Shown piece by piece: positions 2,297-60,563 of a DNA stretch of 64,000 nucleotides. The position numbers and the translations under genes were made by a program. The DNA is taken from assembly GCA_907163375.1 (NCBI GenBank), contig CAJQUW010007105.1, forward strand, positions 1 to 64,000. Reading direction: 5' to 3'. The DNA comes from Prostheceraeus crozeri. Its lineage: Eukaryota > Platyhelminthes > Polycladida > Euryleptidae. A model generated the notes under the pieces. The model worked only from the letters and a program-made list of their open reading frames with translations. It was not told the origin of the DNA and did not search any database. Position 1 is the first letter of the stretch. The number at the start of each line of letters is the position of its first letter.

Positions 2297-3637
2297 CTCA
2301 CTAGGTAGACCTACTCAGGGCTTTCTCCTTAAATACTAGGCAATGTGCTGCATATTCTATTATGAGAGATAATGTTAACCATTTTTCTTCCAAGATATAA
2401 AGTGGAGAAAAATGAATTTCTGAGCAAGCGTTATTAGTCGTTTAATTCGTTTTTAGCGATTTTGTAGTCACTTGTTGGAGATTGGTGACGATGACATTCA
2501 GTTGGCAGACAGTTGGCACTTCAAGCACAGTAAGCTTGAGCAAGGCAGAACGAGAACATCCTTGCGAAGAGTACTCGCATGTTAATGACAGTAATAGAAA
2601 AGGGAGATCACATCACCAGCTATGTGGAAAAATTATTGAGAACTGTATGTCACATTTTCAAGACCTATGCCGATAGCGCTTCTATCTCTGCAGGCTAAGG
2701 CTCATCGCAGATGTAGAGGATACTTCAGAAGTGTAAATTGTTGTGAATTGCAATTAGCAAGTTAATGAAATTCCGACGGGCATTCATTAAAGATCACTTT
2801 AAACTCACGGCTGACAAATTACCTGAGTTAGTGCGCCTGCCATAATTAATAAATGCTGTTTTTTTGCAACCACAATGTAAATAGAATAATTAAATACTGA
2901 GCTGCATCCTCAGTTGAAAAATGTGAACAGACTTGAATAGCTACCATTTATCGAAATTTCACTTACCTGCTAATTGCAATTCTCAAATTGACCCGGGCAT
3001 GGCTGCAGTAGGAAGTTGGTTTTGTCGATGCTAGTGATGAAAATTTTCCGGAAAAATTTGATTTTTGTGATAGGCTCTATAATTTGTGCGCTTACTACCA
3101 CAACTGAGCCAACTACACATCAATAGAATTGGTCTAAAACTCTTGATTTCATCATTATTTCGATTAAAACGATGGTAGCAATTCGAGTCGCTGATTTTTG
3201 AGCATTTCTTTGCGACCAGTGGCTTGTGCTAATTTGTCAGCATTACATATTATCACACAGACACCGTTTTGGATAACATGAATCTTGCTTTACAATGGGG
3301 TATATTTTCATGCAATGAGAAAATCTAGAGAAAAATAAATCATGCACATTATTTTTTTAGTTTGCTTATAGCAATTGAAAGTTAAGCTTTATTGTGCAGC
3401 GTTGATTACATAGTGATACAAATTCTCCATGTGTTGATGAACATGTGAAGTATAACATCACACACTCCACCCAGCATTATACATGAACGACCATATTGGA
3501 AGATATAAAGACTGTAAACTCGTGAAATATTTGGAAGCTAAAGATATCTGTGATGAGTAGAAGAATATCTATGATAGCTTCTAGCTTCTGGCGTTTTGTC
3601 CGATAACCTCGTTGAGGACAAACTACACATCCATTTG
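2297..3637. other. Gene-free stretch
   Basis: No coding or transposon signature recognised. Only short open frames without family motifs. Confidence 0.45.
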
Positions 3638-5618: not shown

Positions 5619-6983
5619 CCTCCAAATGAGAATCGCAGGAGATCCAGAATAGTGTATAATACATGATTTCACATTAAAAACAGACACTATACAAAAAAGC
5701 ACTACAGATTTTGATTATGCAGCAAGAGAGAAGAAAAAAATGGATCCGTCTATTTGGATTCGTTTGGGTCTGACTAATGGAAGCATCAAACACTTACTAC
5801 CAACTGAATCTGTAGGTAGCTGTTTGCGCAAAGCATGAACCATTGATCCGAAAAACAATTTGCTTGACTAAACAACTCTATAATAATGATTGTCAACAAT
5901 TAATAAAATTCAGCTTTTTGCAATTTTCATACTATCGAACAACCGCATCACGTACGATGCGATCTTTCCGTAACATTTGACAGCAATCTTCTGTGTTTTT
6001 AAGGCTGTGCCAGTTTCTGGGCTTTGTTTGATTTGATGTTTGAATCCATAAAAATATCTGATGAATTTTCTCAGACAATACCGACTTCACCGACTGCCGA
6101 TAGAATAACTTATGAAGGATGCTTCATTTTGATTATAGAGATCACACATGTTTTTCAAAATTTCCAAATATTTTTAGCAAGTGGACCAATACATGTCACA
6201 ATCTTGCATTAAAAGTGATACACGTCATCTCAGTTTCCACATATCATGAAAGATATATGGGGATTTCCATCATAAAGCGTATTTTGATAACATCCAGGCA
6301 AATAGAAATTTAATATTGAGAAAAAATCTGAGAAATTGACAAATATTTGCTCATAGAATATTGATAATCCGATGATGTTTATCAGAAAGTAATCCTTACA
6401 TGGATTATCCATTTTGAAACATGAAGTCAGTTTCTCATCATTGATTTACTAGACGAAATTCGCGTATCGATATTTGGCTACACTTTTCGGTTTCTTTCAT
6501 CTTGCGTCTATAAATAATATCTCTGTAGACTCACAAGCTCTCATTTCATTCTAAGAAGGACAATTAATTCGAAAGACTTCCTCTCTCGTCATTTTTTCAT
6601 AAAAGTAGACGCTCTTTCAGCTGTCGGAAAATTCACATTTATCACCAATGGAAAATTTGGTCTCTAATAACCTTTCCTTTATTTTTTATCTATCTGAATC
6701 TACATCGCGAGGATAAGGAAATGTGAGGTTAATATCGTCAAAGAGATATGATACAAACTTTCACTTTTATGATAAATCTTCAGTCTCACGACTTGAGAAG
6801 AAATGAAGTTAAACACTAATTGCTGATGATTCGGTTGGGAAAATACAGAACTCGTGTATCTTTCAGCTGCTTGTGTTGTTTTAAAATCGGACAATTAAAT
6901 TCGGCTACTGCACTGTTTGTCAAAGTAAGATAACAAAGACTAGAGGTAAACAACAGTGCAGTTTGTGACCAGTGTTAAGAAAT
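5619..6983. other. Gene-free stretch
   Basis: Nothing recognisable. Small overlapping frames on both strands (for example 6024-6313) have no domain. Confidence 0.4.
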
Positions 6984-13302: not shown

Positions 13303-15725
13303 TTAGCACTCTTTGTAATCCCTGCCGCACAATATTCGATGAAAACGATTTTGAATTCTTTCCAGCTTAAGTGAATTTTCTGTCGACAGTCCAGCTAGTA
13401 ATGGTGAGCAATACTCCAAAATCGATCGCACAATTGCGATGAAAGCGTTGATTAATGATGCTTCACAAACGTCATTTTGTTTAAGCACACGGATGATAAA
13501 TAATCTTCTTGCTGCGGTTCTTACAGTAGCATTGATGTGGGTATTCCAATTATTGTTCGGGTCAAAAATCACACCAAGGATTTTCAGCTCTTCCACCAGG
13601 GGAATGTTCGACAGACGTATAGGAGTAAAGCTTGGAGAACGTGCAATTGCCAACATTTGCACTTATTCATATTGAGATGTAAGTCAACGCTCACAGACCA
13701 TTCCAATAGCGAATGATGGACTTCTTCCACGTGAGCATTTGCTGAATCTATAAAGATTGGAAGGCAGGTAGTAAAGTCATCGGCGTATTTCACAATTTTA
13801 CACGGTTTGCCGGATATATCAAAGCTGCCAGTCACAATGGAGAACAGGTAAGGACCAAGTATTGAGCCTTGAGGGACACCTGAACTCACTCTGACGTAGT
13901 CACTTTTCACCATTCCGATGCGCACACATTGCCATCGTCCCGTTAAGTAACTGCTAATCCACTGAATGAAATACGAAGGTAAGTTGCACTCGATTAGTCT
14001 GTTAATGATTATATTGAATTTTAATTTATCAAATGCCTTGATGAAATCGTAGGCAACGATTTGGATGCCAGATACACCATGATCGTCCAAACATTTGGTA
14101 TAATAATCATGAAGAGCTATCGTGGCGCATGCTGTAGACGACGCGGGTCGGAATCCATATTGATCTCTTCCGTACCCAAGAAGAAGTTTATCTCTCACGT
14201 CATGCAAAATGAGGCGCTCTAATACTTTCAATGGCACAGAAATCACAGTAATTTGGCGAAGTTCATCCACTGATGCCTTTGAGGATTTGGGAACAGGTGT
14301 TGTAATCGAACATTCCACCGTGTAGGGACAATACCACTTCTCAAAGATAAATTATAAATTTCAGCCAGAGGTTCCGCTATGAAAATTGCAGCCGATTTGT
14401 ATAGTATTGCTGGAATATCTGGAGAAGACTTTTTAGTTTTAATTTGACACAAAGCTTCGTAAACTTCATGAGTTTCCAATTGTGGTAAGTACTGAGGTAG
14501 AAAAGACAACTCATAATTGTCACTCTCCTGAAAATTATTAGCAAAATTACAGTTAATGACGTTCACAGCGGGCTTCAAGAGATCCTATTTGCTCGCAGAT
14601 GGCGTCAATTACATTTTGTCTATTTTTGCCCGATACACAATTGATCGCATGCCATACATTGTTGCCCCTTATCCTTTTATTCCAATTGCGCTTTGCCTTC
14701 TCGATTTCATACTTTACTTTTTCCCTAAAATGGGCATATTTCGAATAATCTCTTTCGCGGTACGCCTTCCACCGACTATTAATCAACTGCTTTATAACAG
14801 GAGTCATCCAAGGCTTATCGTTCTTCGTGAAGGTGACGTAATTCACAGGAATACAGGATTCGAAGGCCGAATCAAGGTTATCGTGAAAGTAATGGCATTT
14901 GCTCTCTATATCGTAACGATTGTCATATACAGGACTCCAGTCCATATTCATTAGACACTGCACAAATTGATCTACATTTGACTCACGGAGATCGTAAACA
15001 GGCTTTTTGATATACAAACTTTCGTTTTTGATAGGCACAAATGGGGTTGCCAGCATGCACATATGAGGAATTTTCGAGGTGTCAATAGGTAGCTCAGTTT
15101 TTACTGTGTACATATTCACATTTCCTCAGACATCAAAATATAGTCCAGCTGAGAGTTTCCGTAGGTAGGTCCGACATATGTATTGACCAGATTAAGGTTA
15201 GAGCAGACCTCAGCAGTAGGAAATCTATTCAGGTCACCGCATAAGACTATGTCATGATTTGGATAGTTCGCTAAAATATCATCCATGGTGTCAATTAGAA
15301 AGTTTGTTAACACTGACTTACATGATACAGACATAACAGGAGGAATGTAGATGCCAATCATGCATAAATCTGGAGATCCCTTAATAGCCACAGTCTCAAT
15401 ACCAGTTGGTACATTTCTCAACTGTATAACATGAGCTTGCAAATGATGTTTTGCCCAAATGGCAACTGCACCACCCATTCGTCCTTCTCGATCATTTTCG
15501 AAAAACCCTGAAGCCAGCTATTGAAACAAAATCATCACTGTGTAAGTATGAGAACCACGTCTCAGTAGCGACAAAAATATCAACGTTCATTCTGGATAAA
15601 ATTGATGAAATAATTTCGATTTTCCGCACTGCTGATCGTGTGTTTGCTAACAAAATTTTTGGCTTTTCTTTTTGATTTCTTGACTTGCTTCTATCACGCA
15701 TATTACTGTTAAAATACACATTCAA
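13303..15725 (-). pseudogene. LINE ORF2: APE endonuclease plus reverse transcriptase, frameshifted
   Basis: The protein would nick target DNA and copy the LINE RNA at the nick. In order: an APE-type endonuclease (NTRSAV, TETWF, GGAVAIWAK, GIYIPP, CGDLNRF, QLDYILMS), a linker with KPWMTP and VKYEIEKAKRNW, then the reverse transcriptase with the SPDIPA region, YGFRPASST, YDFIKAFDKL (first catalytic Asp), SGVPQGSILGP, KYADDFT (catalytic Asp pair) and LKILGVIFD, ending in LEYCSPLLAGL. At least four frame changes (near 15485, 15117, 14560, 14290 and 13620) break it. The ORF1 stop overlaps the ORF2 frame and no ATG starts ORF2 there, which suggests termination-reinitiation or a lost start. Confidence 0.9.
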
Positions 15726-16468
15726 AAATCCTCCTTATCTTGTCTTTTGATGATTTGCCCACGATGAATAATCACATCGTGTCCTTCGGCTCGCAGATTT
15801 TTCAGTCTTTCTCTGAGTAGCTTTTGGGCTTCTTGTTCACATCGAGTATAATCAGGATTGATGAAAACATTCTTAAAAGAGTCATCAGAGCGTAAATGCC
15901 TAGCCAATCCAAGAATTCGTTTCTTCGCCTCAAGATTCTTGCACTGAACTCTTACGAGTCGGATTTTACCGGTACTTTGTTTACCGATCCTGTTTATCGA
16001 AATTACAGAATCTTCCTCTACATTCAGCTTCCGCAAAACACGCTTTACTTTCCCATCATCCTTAGATTTCCTTTCGTTTAAATTACCATCCACTTCCTCC
16101 TCAAAACCAGAGAAAACAAGGTTATTTTCCTTCTGCCTGCGTAATTCACCTTCTCTCAGGATGAAGTTAAGCTTATCCTTCATACCACTCATAGAGTTAG
16201 TATTAATACTACTCTGAAGGTTGTCATATTTCCGTTTTAGTTCAACTACTTCAGAAGTAAGAGTATGTAGCCGGTTGACCATAGGATCAAGCTGTTCTTT
16301 GATCTTCGACTCAATCACGGATGATATCTGATTGACTACGTCAGACTGGTCATTTTGAACTTGAGCACGCATTTGGATGATGGTAAGAATAAGGTCCTGT
16401 TTGTTCAAGGAGGTTTTGCGCTCCAAGAGTTCACGGTCCGTCAATATTGTTATATCATTAACTCCCAT
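15722..16468 (-). CDS. LINE ORF1 protein, coiled coil and RRM-like
   Basis: An intact 248-residue frame directly upstream of the endonuclease/RT. ORF1 proteins of this kind bind the element's RNA and act as chaperones. Residues about 30-110 are rich in heptad-like hydrophobic and charged positions (coiled coil for oligomerisation). RRQKENNLVFSGF at about 110 begins the RRM-like RNA-binding part, as in many L1/CR1-type ORF1 proteins, followed by a basic C-terminal region. The ATG at 16468 gives a normal start. It is the only undamaged frame of the element; ORF2 overlaps its stop. No zinc knuckle is visible. Confidence 0.8.
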   Translation of the reverse strand: MGVNDITILTDRELLERKTSLNKQDLILTIIQMRAQVQNDQSDVVNQISSVIESKIKEQLDPMVNRLHTLTSEVVELKRKYDNLQSSINTNSMSGMKDKLNFILREGELRRQKENNLVFSGFEEEVDGNLNERKSKDDGKVKRVLRKLNVEEDSVISINRIGKQSTGKIRLVRVQCKNLEAKKRILGLARHLRSDDSFKNVFINPDYTRCEQEAQKLLRERLKNLRAEGHDVIIHRGQIIKRQDKEDF

Positions 16469-26016: not shown

Positions 26017-26023
26017 GGCAATT

Positions 26024-26532
26024 CACGGTGGGTTTGAAATATGTTTTTGGTCAAAAAAATGCCTGGTCATTTTGAATGATTTTTCTATAAATGTGATGTC
26101 CACAAATCATTTTGCAGCAAAAACGAAAAAAATTTAACGATTGGATTTAAAGATATTGACCATAATACCCTAAACATACTACTTATAATAAATATTTTCA
26201 TAAATTGGTCCATTTTGCATAATGAACACATATTTTGGTCTGTTTTTGGTAGGTTGGCTGTCGTAAATATCATTAAACAGTAACTGATGACAATATCACA
26301 TTTATCATAATATATCAATCACATATACGCTGCATACTACTTATAATAAATATTTTCAAAAAATGGTCTATTTTGCATATTGTATTCATATTTTGGTCTG
26401 TATTTGGTAGGTTAGCTGTCGTAAATATCATTAAACATAACTAATGACAATATCATATTTACCATTAATATATCAATCACATATACGCTGTATACTATTT
26501 ATTTGCAACTTTTTTATTTAAAAACATATTCA
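26024..26532. repeat. Left TIR with internal 158-bp tandem duplication
   Basis: Inverted copy of 29209-29563 but longer, because a 158-bp block (about 26175-26332) is repeated imperfectly (26333-26490). The first copy matches the right TIR almost perfectly while the second is clearly more diverged, so the duplication predates this insertion. The inner edge (GCAACTTTTTTATTT) matches the inner edge of the right TIR, showing that the right end simply has one unit fewer. Confidence 0.85.
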
Positions 26533-27036
26533 TGAATATTTGAAAGCACATTTGTAGATGTAACGTGAAAGTAGGCTCTAACTAATAGTTACTCTGATAA
26601 TTCGCAATCATATGTTGATAATTCAGAACAATATATTCGATTTTGCATCGAACATGCTTCCTACGGATTCCTGATATTTGATTCTTTTCGTATTTGATAT
26701 TTCTGTTGTAATAGAATGAGCACAACGTTATAACTTGCTAATTTAGTCGCATTATTATTCCAAATTTGAAATCGATGAAATGTCTTGCTTGCTCTGCTAA
26801 TACGACGTACGATATCATATCTATGCTGAGTTATCAGTCATTTTTTTCATTTAGAAGATGGTGAAACAGTGGCAGTCACATGGTGCATAGAGTGCGTGCG
26901 TGCTAGCAGTCGGTTATTTCAAATCTGAAATCGATGAAGCGATGGTTAAGAACAAGATATCTATGTATATTTTTGAATCATTTCATTTAACTTGTCGAAT
27001 ACGTCATACTTTATTTACAGTTCATTGCTGCGCAAG

Positions 27037-29058
27037 ATGCCGAAGTCGCATGATGAAAACAGAATATGTGTCTGTCTTATTTGCCTCGGAAAGACTAAAG
27101 AAATGTTTCAAATTACCGATGACCATAAGAAGATCATAAATACGCATATCATATTTGGATAAGACGACGATGATGTACGCTTACCTTCAGCCCTCTGTTC
27201 CACCTGCAAGCGCGTTATCCAGGACTATTCTAAAGGAAACTTTGCTCGCCGAATCAACGTCGTGGATCATTCCATCTTGTTTGGGTTTCGACCCGAAACG
27301 AGGAACAGAGCCTGTGAGTGCACTGTATGTGAGATGGCGACAACTTCGATTAACGCAAAGATTTCTTCGACGAAATTCAAACGTGGCAGGCCTCGTACTG
27401 AAGACGACACTTCGAATCAATGTAATCCATCAGCGATCAAGCTCTGCAGCAGGTGTTTGTCCATCTTACAACGTGGGAAAGAGCATAGATGTTCAATGGA
27501 CACTCGTCATTCTAACATTCTCAATTTCGCAAACGTGTCATCAAAATCGAGAGAAATGATGCTATCATCTCTTGTGAAAGAACAAGTTGCTTCAGCAGAA
27601 TCTACTGAGTTGTCTGTATCGAACGCAACTGGAGGTCGACCTACGAAAATCATCGTTTCTCCTCAGCACACAGCCTCAAGTAAAGGACAACTGTTCACCG
27701 TGGATGACATGAGCACACTGCAAGTTGACTTGAATCTCTCAACAAACCATACATTAGAAGTTGCGAAGAATTTGAGAGCCTCGTCTTCCAATAGAAAGAT
27801 AATTGAGACTGGTCTAAAGGAAAAGCTTTCAACAGTTAACCATCGACTGGACGATTTCTTTGATGTTATATCCATCGATTTCACAAGGAAAGAGGACTCA
27901 GTTGTTACACGAGATGAACATCCGACTGTGATTTGTACAGATCTGAATGCTCTTCTTCAATATGTGCACGATCATCGACAATATTCAGAGGAGCCCAATG
28001 TGAAAGTCGGCATCGATGGAGGGGGCGGCTTCCTCAAGATAAGTGTTACCATGGAGCGTGCATGTACTGAATCTTCGGAAATTCAAGTCTCCAAGTGATC
28101 TTCTTACAGAGATGAAACAAAGAAAACCTTGAAAGAAACCAGCGTGAAACGTTTATTTATTGTGTTCATTACACCTGATATTCAGGAGAACTACGGAAAC
28201 ATCTTGCATTTGTGGTGCTTATTGAAACTTTCTAATGTAGCTTTCCCTTATACTCTGTCAACTGATCTGAAAATAGCCAACATTCTATTTGGCTTGAGTG
28301 CTCACGGATCTGCCCATCCATGCTGTTGGTGCGACGTGGAAAAATCAAAATTGGACACGCGAGGTAATGTTCGGACTCTTGGCAATATTCGTCAACAGTT
28401 TTGGGAATACCACAAACATGGAAGTAAGCCAAATACTGCTAAGAATTTTGCAAACTGTATCCACCCACCTATATTGAAGGGAGACGACTCTATTCTAGCG
28501 ATTGACGTACTCCCACCACCTGAACTGCATTTATTATTAGGTGTAGTGAACTATATCTACAATGCAGCTCAAAAAGATTGGACTAACATAATGAAATGGG
28601 CAAACGCTTGTCATGTTGAGCGCACTGTGATACATGGAGGGTCATTTGATGGAAATTCTTGTAAAAAACTTTTAGAAAACATTGATCGACTTCAGTCAAT
28701 GTGTCCTATTCATATTTTGAAATACGTTGATTGTTTGAGGTGTTTTCGTAATGTAGTTAAGTCATGTTTCGGTCGAACCTTGGAACCTGATTTCAAACGT
28801 CATATTTCTGATTTTCAACAAAGTTACATCAGTTTGGACATCAATGTCACTCCCAAGGTACATTGTGTATTTTTTCATTTAATTGATTTTATTGAACGAA
28901 AAAGTGAATCGCTTGGGCGTTTTTCGGAGCAGGCGTTTGAGTCTGTGCATGTTGACTTCAAAGCTACCTGGTCAAAATTCAAAGTGCATGTGAATCACCC
29001 TGATTATGAAAGACGTCTTCTGTGCGCAGTTCGCGAGTACAATGCAAAGCATTTGTAG
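27037..29058 (+). pseudogene. RAG1/Transib-like DDE transposase, two in-frame stops
   Basis: A single 673-codon frame from ATG 27037 to 29058, broken only by TAA at 27160 and TGA at 28096. N-terminal zinc-ligand clusters: CVCLICLGK, CSTCKRV, CECTVCE and CSRCLSILQRGKEHRC (residues about 10-155). The core shows VGIDGGGGF (Asp 327), TDLKIANILFGL (Asp 410), CCWC (Cys 429/432), VHCVFFH (His 609/614) and SEQAFESVH (Glu 635). In RAG1 the corresponding residues are D600, D708, C727/C730, H937/H942 and E962: D-to-C spacing is 19 in both, and H-to-E is 21 here against 20. I infer a zinc-containing RNase H-fold transposase acting on the CACGGTG ends. Related uncharacterised proteins are common in cnidarians and arthropods; the formal superfamily is uncertain. 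Confidence 0.75.
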
Positions 29059-29208
29059 TAGCTAAGTTTCATGTTATATCATTTTACAGATGAAATATTA
29101 TTAAATGTTTGTTAAACAAATTATCTTGTTTTTTAATCTCGTTTAGTTTGGATAAATGTCTATGTATAAAAATGCCTTCAAACACAATCCATAAACGTAT
29201 TTATAGTA

Positions 29209-29563
29209 ATAAATATGTTTTTAAATAAAAAAGTTGCAGATAACTAGTATGCAGCGTATATGTGATTGATATATTATTATGGTAAATGTGATATTGTCAT
29301 CAGTTACTGTTTAATGATATTTACGACAGCCAACCTACCAAAAACAGACCAAAATATGTGTTCATTATGCAAAATAGACCAATTTATGAAAATATTTATT
29401 ATAAGTAGTATGTTTAGGGTATTATGGTCAATATCTTTAAATCCAATCGTTGAATTGTTTTCGTTTTTGCTGCAAAATGATTTGTGGACATCACATTTAT
29501 AGAAAAATCATTCAAAATGACCAGGCATTTTTTTGACCAAAAACATATTTCAAACCCACCGTG
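29209..29563. repeat. Right TIR of the RAG1-like element
   Basis: A 355-bp inverted copy of the left terminus, ending CCCACCGTG at 29563. It holds one copy of the 158-bp unit found twice on the left. A 78-codon frame here mirrors a frame in the left TIR only because the DNA is duplicated; it is not a gene. Confidence 0.88.
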
Positions 29564-29759
29564 GCAAATAAACAAGAGAAAGAGCAAAGAATACATGGTC
29601 ACAAGTCATCTCTGATGACCTCTGAGCTCTGGGTCACGATCCAGCAATGTTCTACTATCAGTAGAAATGGCGGCGCGCTATCCGAAAGCAGGAACCGTCT
29701 GACCCTTTTCAACATGGAGAAGGGCGAAAGTAAAGAGTCAGTCTTACAAAATCTTCTGT

Positions 29760-33564: not shown

Positions 33565-34965
33565 TATAATTATCCTAAAATTCCATCAAAATGCTGTTTA
33601 AGGAAAATTACGTTTTGCTAAAGTCGCATTTTGCATGAAATGAACATCTTCCTTTGCTCTCACATGCATAATCACGTATTTCGATCTACAAGGTTAACAT
33701 TTAGACATCAGAAATCATATAGAAATTCTATTTTTTACATCAGATCAGCAATTCAAAAACAAAAACTCAATTACAATATAATCACAATAAATCTTTAATA
33801 TGATTGAAAGAAGATTTTCCGTGTTCAAATCAGCAACTGTGTGATAAATGGGAACTATAGGCTGCCAGAGTATTTCTCTTAAAATTTCAAATGTAATTTT
33901 GCAAAGCTCAGGCTTGGGTTTGCGGTCTTTGATACAATTATTTTGTTTCCTGCTTGCTGCTTTGTAGGGCCTTAATAATTTTGCAATAGCATTCTTTTGA
34001 AATGCTGATTTGCGGTTGATAATCGATCAAAAAGGCTATGTAGAAGAATATGTCACCGGGATGCACTGGGACCCCCCTACTCAGGTCTCTGAGGGTTAAC
34101 AGCATTGTCATGTTTTATGAAACTATTGACGGCGGTTTTGTGGCTATTCTTATTTCGCTCCATCGAACCAATACAATGCTTAAAAATCTTGTGTGTTGCT
34201 ACCTCCGAATAGTCATTAATTGTGACCGAAACTGTTTGTAGCTGATAATGCATGTACACAAGATAAAGCATCACCTTCAACTTTGCTCTTCTCATACTAG
34301 CGTGTGTATAAAAGTCAAGATATCAACATGCTCGATGGTCTCTATTCATGCATGGATAGATGTTACTGGTGAACAATGAATGTGCCACAATTACGCTAGT
34401 TAATATGAATGTTATAAGGCAATGATTGCAAACACGAAGTTCATTCAATATTCAGCTGTCTTTCCAATGAATTGAATTTTACACGGATTATTTATTGAAT
34501 TGACTTACGCTATTGCAAGCAAGCTTGATTCTTTCCTTGACCAGATATTCGATTTCATAATAAATTTTGACAGAACTTTGGTAGTTCTGATCTATTTTTA
34601 TCATCTGGAGAACATGTTTGCTCAAATTCGTCAATTTTTATGTTTGATTTTCTCAGCTGTGATCTGGCAAAACAGCTGCTCAATGTTACACTTTTATTTC
34701 AAGGAATAATTAATAGAAATGAAGATAGTATTTATTCAAAGGATTTGAACATGCGATAACGAATCGTCGAGGGAATTATGAAAGAAAAACTTGATTGATG
34801 GGCAAATGCTCATGTCAATTCAGAGTTCTAACGCCTTGATATAATTATTTAAGAAAACTTCAGGTACAGATGTAAAGGTTGTCGGACACTTTCTCGATTT
34901 GCTGTAATCCCTTACAAATTTCAATTATCGGATGCGGAGGTGGTGGGAAGCAACGTTTCTTGTCG
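33565..34965. other. Gene-free stretch
   Basis: No gene recognised. The frames at 34050-34241 (+) and 34077-34295 (-) overlap and have no family motif. Confidence 0.4.
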
Positions 34966-35490
34966 GAATCGGACGCTTTGTGCGGAGGCGGAGTCGGCCC
35001 AAAGCAAGGCTTTGCACTGAGCGAAGGCGGGCGGAGGCAAAGCTTTGCACAGAGGCGGGCGAATGCAAGGCTTTGCGCTGAGGCGGAGGCGGCCGGAAAC
35101 AAACGAAGGCCGGGCCTTGAAAGACCTTGCGCAGAGGCGGAGAAGGGCGGAGGCGAGGCGGGTGCAGATAAGGCTTTGCCTGGAGCGGAGGAAAACGAAG
35201 GCCAGACTCTTCGCAGAGGCGACGGAGGCAAGGCTGTTTGGAGAGACGGAGGTGGGTGGAGACAAAGCTTTGCGAGGAGGCGAAGGCAAGAGTTTGCGCA
35301 GAAGCGGAAGCGAAGGTGAGTGGAGACAAGGCTTTATTCGGAGGCGGGCGGAGATAAGGCTCTGAGTGGAGGCGGAGACGAACGAAGGCAAAGTTTGTGC
35401 AGAGGCGGGTAGAGGCAAGGCTTTGTGTGAAGGCGAACGGAGAAAAACTTTGTGCGGAGGCGGGCGAAGGCAAAGCTTTGCGTGGGTGCG
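34966..35490. repeat. CpG- and G-rich minisatellite, ~30-bp unit
   Basis: About 17 irregular copies of a unit like GGCGGGCGGAGGCAAGGCTT followed by TGCGCAGA, with spacings mostly 24-42 bases. It stands out sharply from the AT-rich surroundings by GC content and CpG density. Long frames exist on several strands only because stop codons are rare in this composition; no protein family is apparent. AAGCTTTGC-type half-palindromes recur in each unit. Confidence 0.85.
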
Positions 35491-36897
35491 ATCTTTCCAA
35501 AAATTATAGTGCATGCTCGTTTCAATTTGTGGCATCAGTTTCTACCAACTCGATCTTCTTACTACCACAAATAGATGTTCAACATTTTGATTCAACTTTT
35601 TAGAAAATGATGCTTTGAAGTTTTATCGAAAATTGATAGTAGATGACATGATGTTTTGATCAACTATCATGCGATGACGTGTTTCGACAATGTTGGAAGT
35701 GAAGTTGAATCGTTAAAGCTAAGAGGCACATATTGCAACTCAAATAAAAGATTTTCGAAAATCAATGTGAATTACTTACTTTCACTGCCATCTTAGTTAC
35801 AATTTCCTGCAGAAAAATTGTAGAAACGGCATCCGAATGAATGAACGCACCAAATATATTGCAAGGCATGAGAAACTGATTGATACTTGGGCTCCAGTGC
35901 ATTAAACAGATAGCACTGCAGTGTTATAAATGTATATTGTGTGCAGTGTTTATATAATGATATTGCTATTATTCATATATGATAACTACAAGAATAATTT
36001 ATGGATAAATGAATATGTTGATCTTATCTTTATATGTATGTGCACGCACTTTCACAATGGTCTTCTATTAATGAATTGATTAAGATACCCAATTTTGTAA
36101 GAAACAGACGAAAGTGACCAATTTTCACAGAAGTACCTTTTTTGAAGGTCACATGGTTGATGCTTCCATGGATAACATTTGGATTGATTATCGGAAATAC
36201 GATGAAACTGAAATAAAAAAAAAATATTGGAGCCGTGTCTGTTGTGGCTGTGTAGCAACATCAAGTGTAAATATTAGGTAACTATAAGGGTCAACTTAAA
36301 AATTGTCAGCAAACAGTGAATTTTTCGCCTCAATAGATTCAGTTTTATGAGGAGATTATGCTCCTGTTGTCAAAAAACATTTGATAATTTTTAAAGAAAG
36401 TGCATTTTTGCAAATTATTCCTGTGTTAACATACTAGCGATTAGCCACCAAAGATTTCAAAATTTATGTAGCATGAAGCTTGTTAGATATAAAACAGAGT
36501 GAAAATTTACTGAGAACAAACCTAATGAAAAGGAAATTGAGTTGATTATGAAAGATTTTTCAATACAGCACTATTATTAAATTCATCACGCTAAAAACTG
36601 AAATTTCGTTCACTTCTTGGCTCAATTTTCGAGCTTACTAACTTAAGAAATTTAGGTATAGCTCTTGTTCGATCAGGCTAAATGGATGTGTTGATGCACT
36701 TGTCCCTAACTGAATGCATTCTGCAGGAAGTAAAAATCATCATGCAGAATTGATTTATAAATGGTTGGAATGATATTACTCAGCAAAAATTCAATTTCTT
36801 GCATGTTAATTAATTCAATTTTATCTAGTTTGATTTTATGATTCAGTAAATTAGGTTTCATTTTATATTTACAGTATTATTGCGGACCTTTTACTTG
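35491..36897. other. Gene-free stretch
   Basis: Nothing recognised. Confidence 0.4.
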
Positions 36898-43073: not shown

Positions 43074-44130
43074 ATGGCGACTAGCTCACGTTTTCGAGAT
43101 GATTCCCAAGAAAGAGACAGATTGTTAAATAATTCAGTACCAGAACACACAGAAAAAAGCACGAAATGCTCAATCAAAATTTTCAATGAATTCCTACAAT
43201 TGAAATACATTGACCTTAATGACATCACAAGTGACAGTGACATGTTAGATGAAGTCTTATCAAGGTTCTTTTCATCAGTGTTGCAAAGAAATGGAAATGA
43301 CTACAAAAAGAACTCATTTCTGTCGTTGAAAAATGGAATTCGACGATCATTGAAACGTTCTTTTGGGATAGACATTTCTGACAAGATCATTTTTAAGCGA
43401 CCTTCTGACATGTATAGAGCAAAACTCAAAGACATAAGACAAAAGGGACTTGGAAACACAGTACACAAGCCTGCAATTCAGCCTCAGGATTTAGCAAAGT
43501 GCTACGAATCTTTGGATCTTCGTAAGGCCAAAGATTTGCAGCGAAAAGTTTTTTTGGACATCATCGTATACGTCGGTAGGCGGGGTCGCGATGAGCTTCG
43601 GTGCATGACATTTAGTATGCTTAAAGAAGAAAATTCAACCGATTCAAAATGGTTCCGCATTGTTCCTCTGTTTGATAAAAATCACAGAGAAGATGAAGAG
43701 CAATCTGATTTTGATGGTGGTGTCATTCCAATGATTCCAGATTCTAAACACTGTCCATTTACATCATTGAAAAAGTATATATCGAAAAGAAATTTGAACA
43801 TCGATGCTTTTTGGCAGCGTCCAAAGGATCATGTAAATGATCAGATGCCAATTTGGTATGATGCCGTGCCTGTAGAGAAGTGTCGATTAAACGCAATGAT
43901 GAAAGACATAGCGTAGACTACAATTTATTAAAAGTGTACACGAATCACAGCGGTCGGGCAACAACTGTTCAAACGCTAAATATCTGGATATTCTGATCGT
44001 GAGGTGATGAGCGTTACAAAGCATAAATCAGCTCAATCATTAATATCCTATGATTCGATTGACAGCGATAGGAAAATATCAATGGGCATGAATATAGCCA
44101 AAAAATGCTTTCATATTCGTGCTGGAACCT
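43074..44130 (+). pseudogene. Crypton-type tyrosine recombinase, two frameshifts near the C-terminus
   Basis: The enzyme would cut and rejoin DNA through a phosphotyrosine link to move a Crypton element. The first 280 codons are open from ATG 43074: an N-terminal SAM-like DNA-binding part (STKCSIKIFNEFLQL, LDEVLSRFFSSV, YKKNSFLSLKNGIRRSL), then the catalytic domain with GRRGRDELRCM (first Arg, about residue 170) and CPFTSLKKYISKRN. After a stop at about 43915 the frame shifts to YTNHSGRATTV (His-x-x-Arg) and again to VMSVTKHKSAQSLISYDS (final His and the nucleophile Tyr). All catalytic residues are therefore still present. The style (MMKDIA, FWQRP) fits animal Crypton/DUF3504 proteins such as the KIAA1958/ZMYM relatives. 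Either a young pseudogene or two sequencing indels. Confidence 0.82.
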
Positions 44131-59539: not shown

Positions 59540-60563
59540 AATAACAAAAGGTGAAAATAAGAAACCTAAAAAACCAAAATTAAGTTTGCTATGTATGGGG
59601 TCATCAGGGAGGAACCATGTGGCTGCATGAAGCAAGGTTTCGGCCCCTAACCTCCAACCTATACCACATGGCGGAGCCAGGCCAACCATATCGAATGTAC
59701 GATATGGAAGGTCTCTCCAAGCCTGAGGAAACATAGCAGAACCAAACCGAAAATAAATTTTTTTTGGAATTTATTAGGACAAAAAGAAGCACATGAAACT
59801 AGAAGAGGTTTTCTTAGCCCAACATGCCAATGATGGATGGCATCTGGCGGGGCGAAAAACAACCAAACTTAAAAACGAGGAACCTATTCTTGGAGAAGGA
59901 CTTTATGCAAGAATTAACCAGCAAATTAGTCTTATAACCCCGTCCTTTGAAGATATCAAAAATGCCCTTAGCTCTTGATGTGAAGGCGGAAGCATCAGAT
60001 GAAATCCTGGCGAACCTGATGAGTTGGGCAGCAAAGATGTTTAAGCCAGTGTTCAAAGGCATGTTACTCTCGGGGAAAGTATACAGCACCACTGGGAAGC
60101 TGAACTCATTAACCTTATGGTAAACCTCTGTGATGTATTGGCCACCATCTTCGATCCTGATTTTGACATCCAAATAATTAACACATTTGTTGTTGTCTCC
60201 GCTTCTGCTAGCTAAGAGATCTACCGGGTAGATTTCAGGAAGGATCTTATCAAAATGTTTGTAGTTAAACACACAAATGTCGTCGACATACCTAGTGGTA
60301 CGAGAGAGAAGTTTGGCTAAGCCAAATCTCTTACTCGCTAGGAGCCCCCTCACAAACTTAAACTCCCTGTAAGCCAAAAACAGGTCAGCTAAGAGTGAGC
60401 TGGAATTCCCACCCATAGGTATGCCTCGAATTTGCTTGAAGACAAGTCCCCCGAAAGTGACAAAAGTGTTATCCAGGATGAAACTTATTGCATTAAGGAA
60501 TTGGGTTTTGGACCAGCAGTGATACCCTCTGTATTTTTTATTCGAGAAGAAGGTTCTATAATA
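59540..60563 (-). pseudogene. Penelope-type reverse transcriptase, 5'- and 3'-truncated
   Basis: An open minus-strand frame from about 60563 to 59814 (250 codons). It contains YRGYHCWSKTQFL, FVTFGGLVFKQIRGIPMGGN (template-grip motif, GIPMG), ADLFLAY, TRYVDDICVFN (catalytic YVDD), VNYLDVKI, FSFPVVLYTFPESN and RFARISSDASAFTSRAKGI with GYKTNLL, all typical of the Penelope-related RT family widespread in cnidarians and other animals. The start of the RT (fingers) is missing after a stop at 60564. Below 59814 the frame breaks; pieces such as FGLVLLCFLRLGETFHIVH and a CATTTTCCACATGG-poor 3' region continue to about 59540. No GIY-YIG nuclease is seen attached. Confidence 0.8.

Follow-up and report, generated by a model that had tools for sequence, protein, structure and literature searches.

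A young DNA transposon, very probably of the Chapaev group, with a RAG1-like catalytic core in the polyclad flatworm Prostheceraeus crozeri

Introduction

To which relatives of RAG1 does the transposon at positions 26024–29563 of contig CAJQUW010007105.1 of Prostheceraeus crozeri (assembly GCA_907163375.1) belong? The window analysed here is the whole stretch of 64,000 nucleotides (positions 1–64,000, forward strand) in which the element lies. An earlier note, made from the letters of the window, had described the element as a RAG1/Transib-like transposon of recent insertion date. The element belongs with high probability to a family of Chapaev transposons that is young and has few copies; Chapaev falls within the CMC/CMCT clade, which also holds the relatives Transib and RAG1.

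In the excerpts available of a 2025 study, CMCT comprises EnSpm, Mirage, Chapaev, Transib and others, with C(2)C and H(3–4)H motifs in common with RAG1 (PMC12730594). The consulted part of Kapitonov and Koonin (2015) unites Transib, TransibSU, Chapaev and Chapaev3 in one superfamily and places RAG1 in the TransibSU clade (PMC4411706). If the element is a Chapaev, the earlier remark that similar invertebrate proteins lack a formal link to RAG1 is therefore wrong.

The element and its transposase

The 3540 bp at 26024–29563 (plus strand) are a complete DNA transposon carrying a damaged gene. Its limits were set from the ends of the terminal inverted repeats (TIRs) and by comparison with seven other copies of the family, and they agree with the extent and ends first described. 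The left TIR (26024–26312, plus strand) starts with CACGGTG and spans 289 nt; its mate (29275–29563, minus strand) ends with CACCGTG and differs at four positions, so that the few differences reported earlier were correct and their estimated number, about six, was too high. The element opens with CACGGTGGGTTTGAAA and closes with the reverse complement of CACGGTGGGTTTGAAA. As had been noticed, CACGGTG is a single base from the V(D)J heptamer CACAGTG. A subterminal tandem repeat of about 158 bp, present in 2.1 copies, was identified in the left arm using Tandem Repeats Finder (26175–26502, plus strand), and portions of it recur inverted in the right arm (29203–29412; I2–I5 of the inverted-repeat listing).

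The transposase frame occupies 27037–29058 (plus strand; 673 codons and a stop). It had been presented as a single long coding frame; the frame is there and otherwise stays open, but is broken by in-frame stops at codon 42 (27160–27162) and codon 354 (28096–28098). An intact version of 673 residues is seen at another locus of the genome, L009. Apart from the two parts of this frame, the open reading frames (ORFs) listed within the element reach at most 134 residues. About 200 residues bearing conserved cysteine pairs lie N-terminal to the core. The cysteine-rich region (27073–27492, plus strand; C13xxC16, C54xxC57, C93xCxxC98, C137xxC140 and H150xC152) is a candidate Chapa-type zinc domain, and its cysteine/histidine set from C13 to C152 is invariant in five full-length relatives. 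A GGRP motif (27631–27642, plus strand), comparable to GGRPR of the RAG1 nonamer-binding domain, follows; in the same relatives G200 and P202 are invariant and R201 is variable.

The RNase H-type catalytic core with a zinc-type insertion (28015–28959, plus strand) contains D327, D410, C429/C432, L497-H498, H609/H614 and E635. Thirteen core sequences from the genome were compared, the other 12 being 40–52% identical to the first. D410, C429, C432, H609, H614 and E635 are invariant in all 13 and D327 is kept in 12; because of this invariance across divergent sequences, the named catalytic and zinc residues are not a chance arrangement. The motif set C(2)C, LH and H(4)H plus DDE is conserved among the relatives. 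The spacings first given were confirmed: D410 and C429 are 19 residues apart, as are RAG1 708 and 727, and H614 and E635 are 21 apart versus 20 in RAG1 (RAG1 residues are numbered on the mouse chain).

Target-site duplications and empty sites

Chapaev elements other than Chapaev3 make target-site duplications (TSDs) of 4 bp. TSDs were counted for the window copy and 20 loci (21 in all), minus six that lack a readable pair of ends (L015, L016, L018, L021, L027 and L028). An exact 4-bp direct repeat flanks ten of these 15 elements, none has a TSD of 3 or 5–10 bp, and a 2-bp match was found in two; four-mers at shifted control positions match in 8 of 1596 cases. L013 has TAC at both ends, one element of the 15. 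The true CACGGTGG ends of L022 give no direct 4-bp repeat and leave the count of ten unchanged. Five further elements with both ends readable all have a 4-bp TSD (GGAG, AGGT, CTTT, TTCT and AGCT), so that 15 of 20 elements combined carry an exact TSD of this length, with varied sequences.

L022, whose CACGGTGG ends are normal, occupies the precise middle of a palindrome: the arms of 40 bp on its two sides (2975–3014 and 6611–6650) are inverted copies of one another, and no direct TSD is present.

Two insertions have exact empty counterparts. An empty paralogue of the L011 site (C10279:99367–99606) is identical at 240 of 240 bases (100%) to the joined flanks with one ACGT, and 11 of the 17 matches listed for these flanks cross the junction. 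The empty site of L010 (C6403:302588–302830) is 97% identical over the entire joined query, with an exact junction containing one GACA. In two other copies of the repeat entered by L011, on C517 and C6648, the match breaks near the same junction (query 112–122), with kilobases between the parts; these breaks may be other insertions at that junction. Adjoining the L011 insertion is an open frame of 398 residues (L011 4458–5651) that by eye resembles a piggyBac-type transposase.

The window copy lies in an old dispersed repeat, and all 38 other matches listed cross its joined flanks (40 scored of 488 candidates). Alignment with four empty copies shows GCAATT (26018–26023, plus strand) to be extra relative to the empty repeat; the right flank reads GCAAAT (29564–29569, plus strand), in which GCAA repeats the left flank. 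Two readings fit: GCAA was duplicated and two extra bases (TT) lie by the left end, or six bases were duplicated and one of them changed. The window copy is a real single insertion.

Resemblance of the core to RAG1 and Transib

Single-sequence searches of Pfam and the PDB returned nothing useful. A global alignment with RAG1 gave a match of only 43 columns and was discarded as meaningless. When the profile was aligned with the mouse RAG1 core using hhalign, the score (33.7) exceeded those of all 100 shuffles (best 29.8). In this alignment D410, C429, C432, L497-H498, H609, H614 and E635 fall on RAG1 D708, C727, C730, L794-H795, H937, H942 and E962, and an identical register was obtained with two other profile alignments; D327 and RAG1 D600 lie outside the local alignment.

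A template-free model of the full-length L009 protein has a mean predicted local distance difference test (pLDDT) score of 57 and a predicted template-modelling (pTM) score of 0.41. Searched against the PDB using Foldseek, it gave RAG1 or HzTransib structures at all of ranks 1–19 (E values from 3e-7 to 2.5e-3; 18 of the 19 at 1e-3 or below), followed at rank 20 by an unrelated structure (E = 0.45). A model of the core built with the 13 sequences reached a pLDDT of 82.4 and a pTM of 0.76. In it, D327 (model residue 123) lies within strand 117–125, taken as the first RNase H strand, D410 (206) stands right behind strand 201–204, and E635 (431) is in the late helix 428–444. The three residues are thus predicted to occupy the positions of an RNase H-type transposase. 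The structural comparison that the earlier note had proposed therefore supports its description of the catalytic core, and the resemblance to RAG1 and Transib is real and is one of common fold.

N-terminal region

The cysteine pairs C13/C16, C54/C57 and C95/C98 are ordered like C110/C113, C175/C178 and C210/C213 of RAG1. With hhalign the full-length profile aligns the second and third of these pairs and a dedicated N-terminal profile the second only; the N-terminal score of the full-length profile beat 60 of 60 shuffles. Matches to zf-AD (PF07776) below the cut-off were found in seven of 12 sequences at E values up to 1, and the best value in the scan of ten relatives was 0.0035; those in the L009 and L027 proteins lie at residues 12–65, inside the candidate Chapa region. 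No RING domain was matched in Pfam scans of the family proteins. Chapa is the name that Kapitonov and Koonin, in the portion consulted, give to this region in Chapaev and RAG1 (PMC4411706). Because that source assigns the domain to both, homology of the N-terminal region to RAG1 is likely, the match obtained here being weakly above chance.

Family in the genome

The genome searched comprises 2.05 Gb in 14,165 contigs. The C-terminal 319 residues have at least 125 scored matching places (the best of 5735 first-look candidates), 14 of which combine a match without a stop with a continuous frame of at least 660 residues; intact relatives, which the earlier note thought might survive, do exist. 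The genome-wide TIR search that it had proposed gave 47 matches, including 17 arm pairs; these are the elements of the family of the window copy with both arms in the genome. Eight copies of this family diverge pairwise by 0.8–2.1% and from the column majority by 0.6–1.3%. The other subfamilies, many and older, have about 40–56% of residues in common. No relatives were found in viral contigs, prokaryote genomes or phage records.

The family of the window copy is young and low in copy number. Its youth is read from the low divergence between copies and the identical empty site, rather than from the TIRs. The arms of a DNA transposon, unlike long terminal repeats, are not made as copies of each other upon insertion, and TIR divergence is therefore no clock; its use as one was rejected. 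A recent move, as claimed earlier, is accordingly upheld on grounds other than those first offered.

In each of the six pairs of relatives for which they were computed, nonsynonymous divergence (pN) is lower than synonymous divergence (pS). For L009–L020, L009–L025 and L022–L025 pN is 0.35–0.40 against a saturated pS of about 0.82, for L025–L027 0.26 against 0.82, and for two close pairs 0.013 against 0.026 and 0.002 against 0.017. The protein has therefore been maintained by selection between moves. Relative to L009 the window copy carries seven synonymous and 13 other changes (counting the stops), a pattern expected once a copy has ceased to be under selection.

A search with the end pattern gave 72 matches in total versus ten in a reversed control. 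Related ends 1.3 kb apart (C10515:871923–873264 and C572:35129–36428) probably mark non-autonomous copies, judging from the spacing. At C8281:420272–420291 and C12338:314332–314351, related ends with two mismatches to the pattern open with CACAGTG, identical to the V(D)J heptamer.

Classification

CACTA/EnSpm elements have CACTA-type ends. With their 3-bp TSDs they differ from the elements described here, which have CACGGTG ends and 4-bp TSDs. In the excerpted text of PMC4079192, Chapaev is characterized by TSDs of 3–4 bp, CAC..GTG termini and the motifs C(2)C, LH and H(4)H, and Chapaev3 by 3-bp TWA duplications between A and T. The family shows a TSD within this range, these ends and these motifs together with DDE, and it is assigned to Chapaev because of them. 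Further agreement with Chapaev (Kapitonov and Jurka, 2007, as described in the parts consulted of PMC4079192 and PMC4411706) is seen in the cysteine-rich N-terminal region; a RING domain is said there to be present in two subgroups, whereas the Pfam scans matched none here.

Several results weigh against the assignment or the RAG1 relationship. A quarter of the set (five of 20 elements: the window copy, L012, L013, L022 and L025) has no exact 4-bp TSD, and at the window copy the 4-bp duplication is not clean. The Chapaev assignment was made from printed hallmarks. Neither the pieces from the window nor ten relatives gave a Pfam match above the cut-off, and a HMMER profile search of PDB sequences finds no RAG1. 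The profile comparison with RAG1 proposed in the earlier note, for all that its score stood above the shuffles, has an hhalign probability of 19% (E = 0.0012 for a single target), and earlier alignments gave 0.8% and 2.6%. The N-terminal match to RAG1 is weak with the dedicated profile, being equalled by three of 200 shuffles and by eight of 200 shuffles with cysteines fixed. The fold search covers the weaker, full-length model, in which the stretches around D410 and E635 fall below a pLDDT of 50. In training, AlphaFold may already have taken in the RAG1 fold, and the match is for this reason not fully independent of known RAG1 structures. The Foldseek TM-scores for RAG1 and HzTransib are 0.30–0.47 with root-mean-square deviations of 8.5–15.3; with scores so modest and deviations so large, the claim is therefore one of common fold and not of close similarity.

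A true Transib or RAG-like (RAGL) transposon, which is nearest to the earlier description, is very improbable. The best fold matches are RAG1 and HzTransib structures, the fold search on the full-length model shows the RAG1-type RNase H core with zinc insertion expected of Transib, the ends are CAC and the RAG1 profile aligns in register; like HzTransib (6pqx and 6pqy), the element has DDE residues with a zinc-type insertion and one gene. With RAG1, RAGL and ProtoRAG it has in common the predicted core fold, the order and spacing of catalytic and zinc residues, a GGRP-like motif and heptamer-like ends. Duplications of 5 bp are given for both RAGL and Transib in the consulted part of PMC7204232, but none of the 15 elements has one; the 4-bp TSD is counted as already refuting this reading for the family. 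The RAG1/Transib-like label thus holds for the catalytic core and fails for Transib itself. The transposase of Transib is core only, and the portion consulted of PMC4411706 describes canonical Transib without the long cysteine-rich N-terminal region that precedes the core here. The convergent RAG1L and RAG2L genes of RAGL are likewise missing: the element has no second long frame and no RAG2-like gene, and it departs from the RAG1 systems also in its long symmetric TIRs and in having no RING match. The Pfam family RAG1 (PF12940) has no match in the genome, but control genomes were equally without one, so its absence is not shown.

A separate, unnamed CMCT lineage beside Chapaev rather than inside it is improbable, if less so. 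An assignment from printed hallmarks and the lack of Pfam matches above the cut-off would leave room for it; against it, the family agrees with Chapaev in the length of its TSDs, in its ends and in its motifs, as far as the text of PMC4079192 available gives them. Membership of the Chapaev3 subgroup is of negligible probability: its core motifs C(2)C, LH and H(4)H and its CAC ends are found here, but according to the same excerpts it makes 3-bp TWA duplications, against none of 3 bp among the 15 elements and varied 4-bp sequences, and on this ground the subgroup counts as refuted. N-RAG-TP of Aplysia (Panchin and Moroz, 2008, as reported in the part consulted of PMC8355894) has a RAG1-like N-terminal region, as does the element, where the likeness is weak; it is described there as the N-terminal part only, whereas the frame described here continues into a full catalytic core. 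Membership of Chapaev is the preferred classification.

Transposition and the A-tract

By homology, the Chapaev-type transposase would bind both TIRs as a pair, and the site formed by D327, D410 and E635 would cut beside the CAC ends and free the element, probably via a nick and a hairpin as in RAG and Hztransib. The freed element would then be joined to its target with a 4-bp stagger. Because of its two in-frame stops the window copy would yield no full-length protein, and any movement would be in trans by intact copies elsewhere.

An A7 tract lies at element positions 30–36 (26053–26059, plus strand), 22 bp after CACGGTG, and is mirrored at the right end (29528–29534, minus strand). A run of 7–9 A at positions 29/30 to 35/37 is present in four of six subfamily ends tested, 21–22 bp further in than the heptamer, which is CACGGTT in one subfamily and CACGGTG otherwise. 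Outside the A block and the first eight bases, the subfamily ends are 24–53% identical. Rotation of each end gave a chance of 2e-5 for four or more A blocks, a value for a feature picked post hoc in related subfamilies. By analogy with V(D)J signals the ends could be bipartite, with a heptamer and an A7–A9 block that the transposase would recognise through its GGRP region; we regard this as unlikely, though conceivable. The block is missing in two tested subfamilies and at the L027 end, which was outside the test, and the spacing is equal at both ends of an element. The GGRP arginine shows no association with the tract, a poor fit on the protein side: it is kept with the tract in the window copy and L009 and in L016 (by eye of the same kind as L017), but is replaced despite the tract in L020 and L022–L023 and kept without it in L019 and L025.

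Other features of the window

Remains of a reverse-transcriptase element occupy 13584–16468 (minus strand), where the frame 13587–14318 matches RVT_1 (1.5e-23); two other frames tested there have no Pfam match at 0.01. A frame of 280 residues at 43074–43916 (plus strand) contains DUF3504 (PF12012; 1.2e-8), a domain that occurs in Crypton-type tyrosine recombinases. At 59814–60416 (minus strand), a frame of 200 residues resembles by eye a Penelope-type reverse transcriptase and has no Pfam match at 0.01. Tandem repeats with units of 28 and 55 bp, rich in G+C, lie at 34921–35535 within a stretch open in two minus-strand frames, which is probably not a gene.

Significance

The link of Chapaev to RAG1 is already in print; the element informs more than it surprises, being an ordinary representative of a group already described. 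Chapaev, going by print, joins the Chapa N-terminal region to a RAG1-like core, and can therefore be used to test which parts of RAG1 are ancestral: the zinc region, the GGRP motif and the heptamer-like ends. Intact elements of several subfamilies are available for this in the genome of P. crozeri, as are two insertions whose empty sites are exact. If the doubtful bipartite reading of the ends were true, heptamer-plus-nonamer recognition would predate RAG1 and Transib and would belong to the common ancestor of CMCT.

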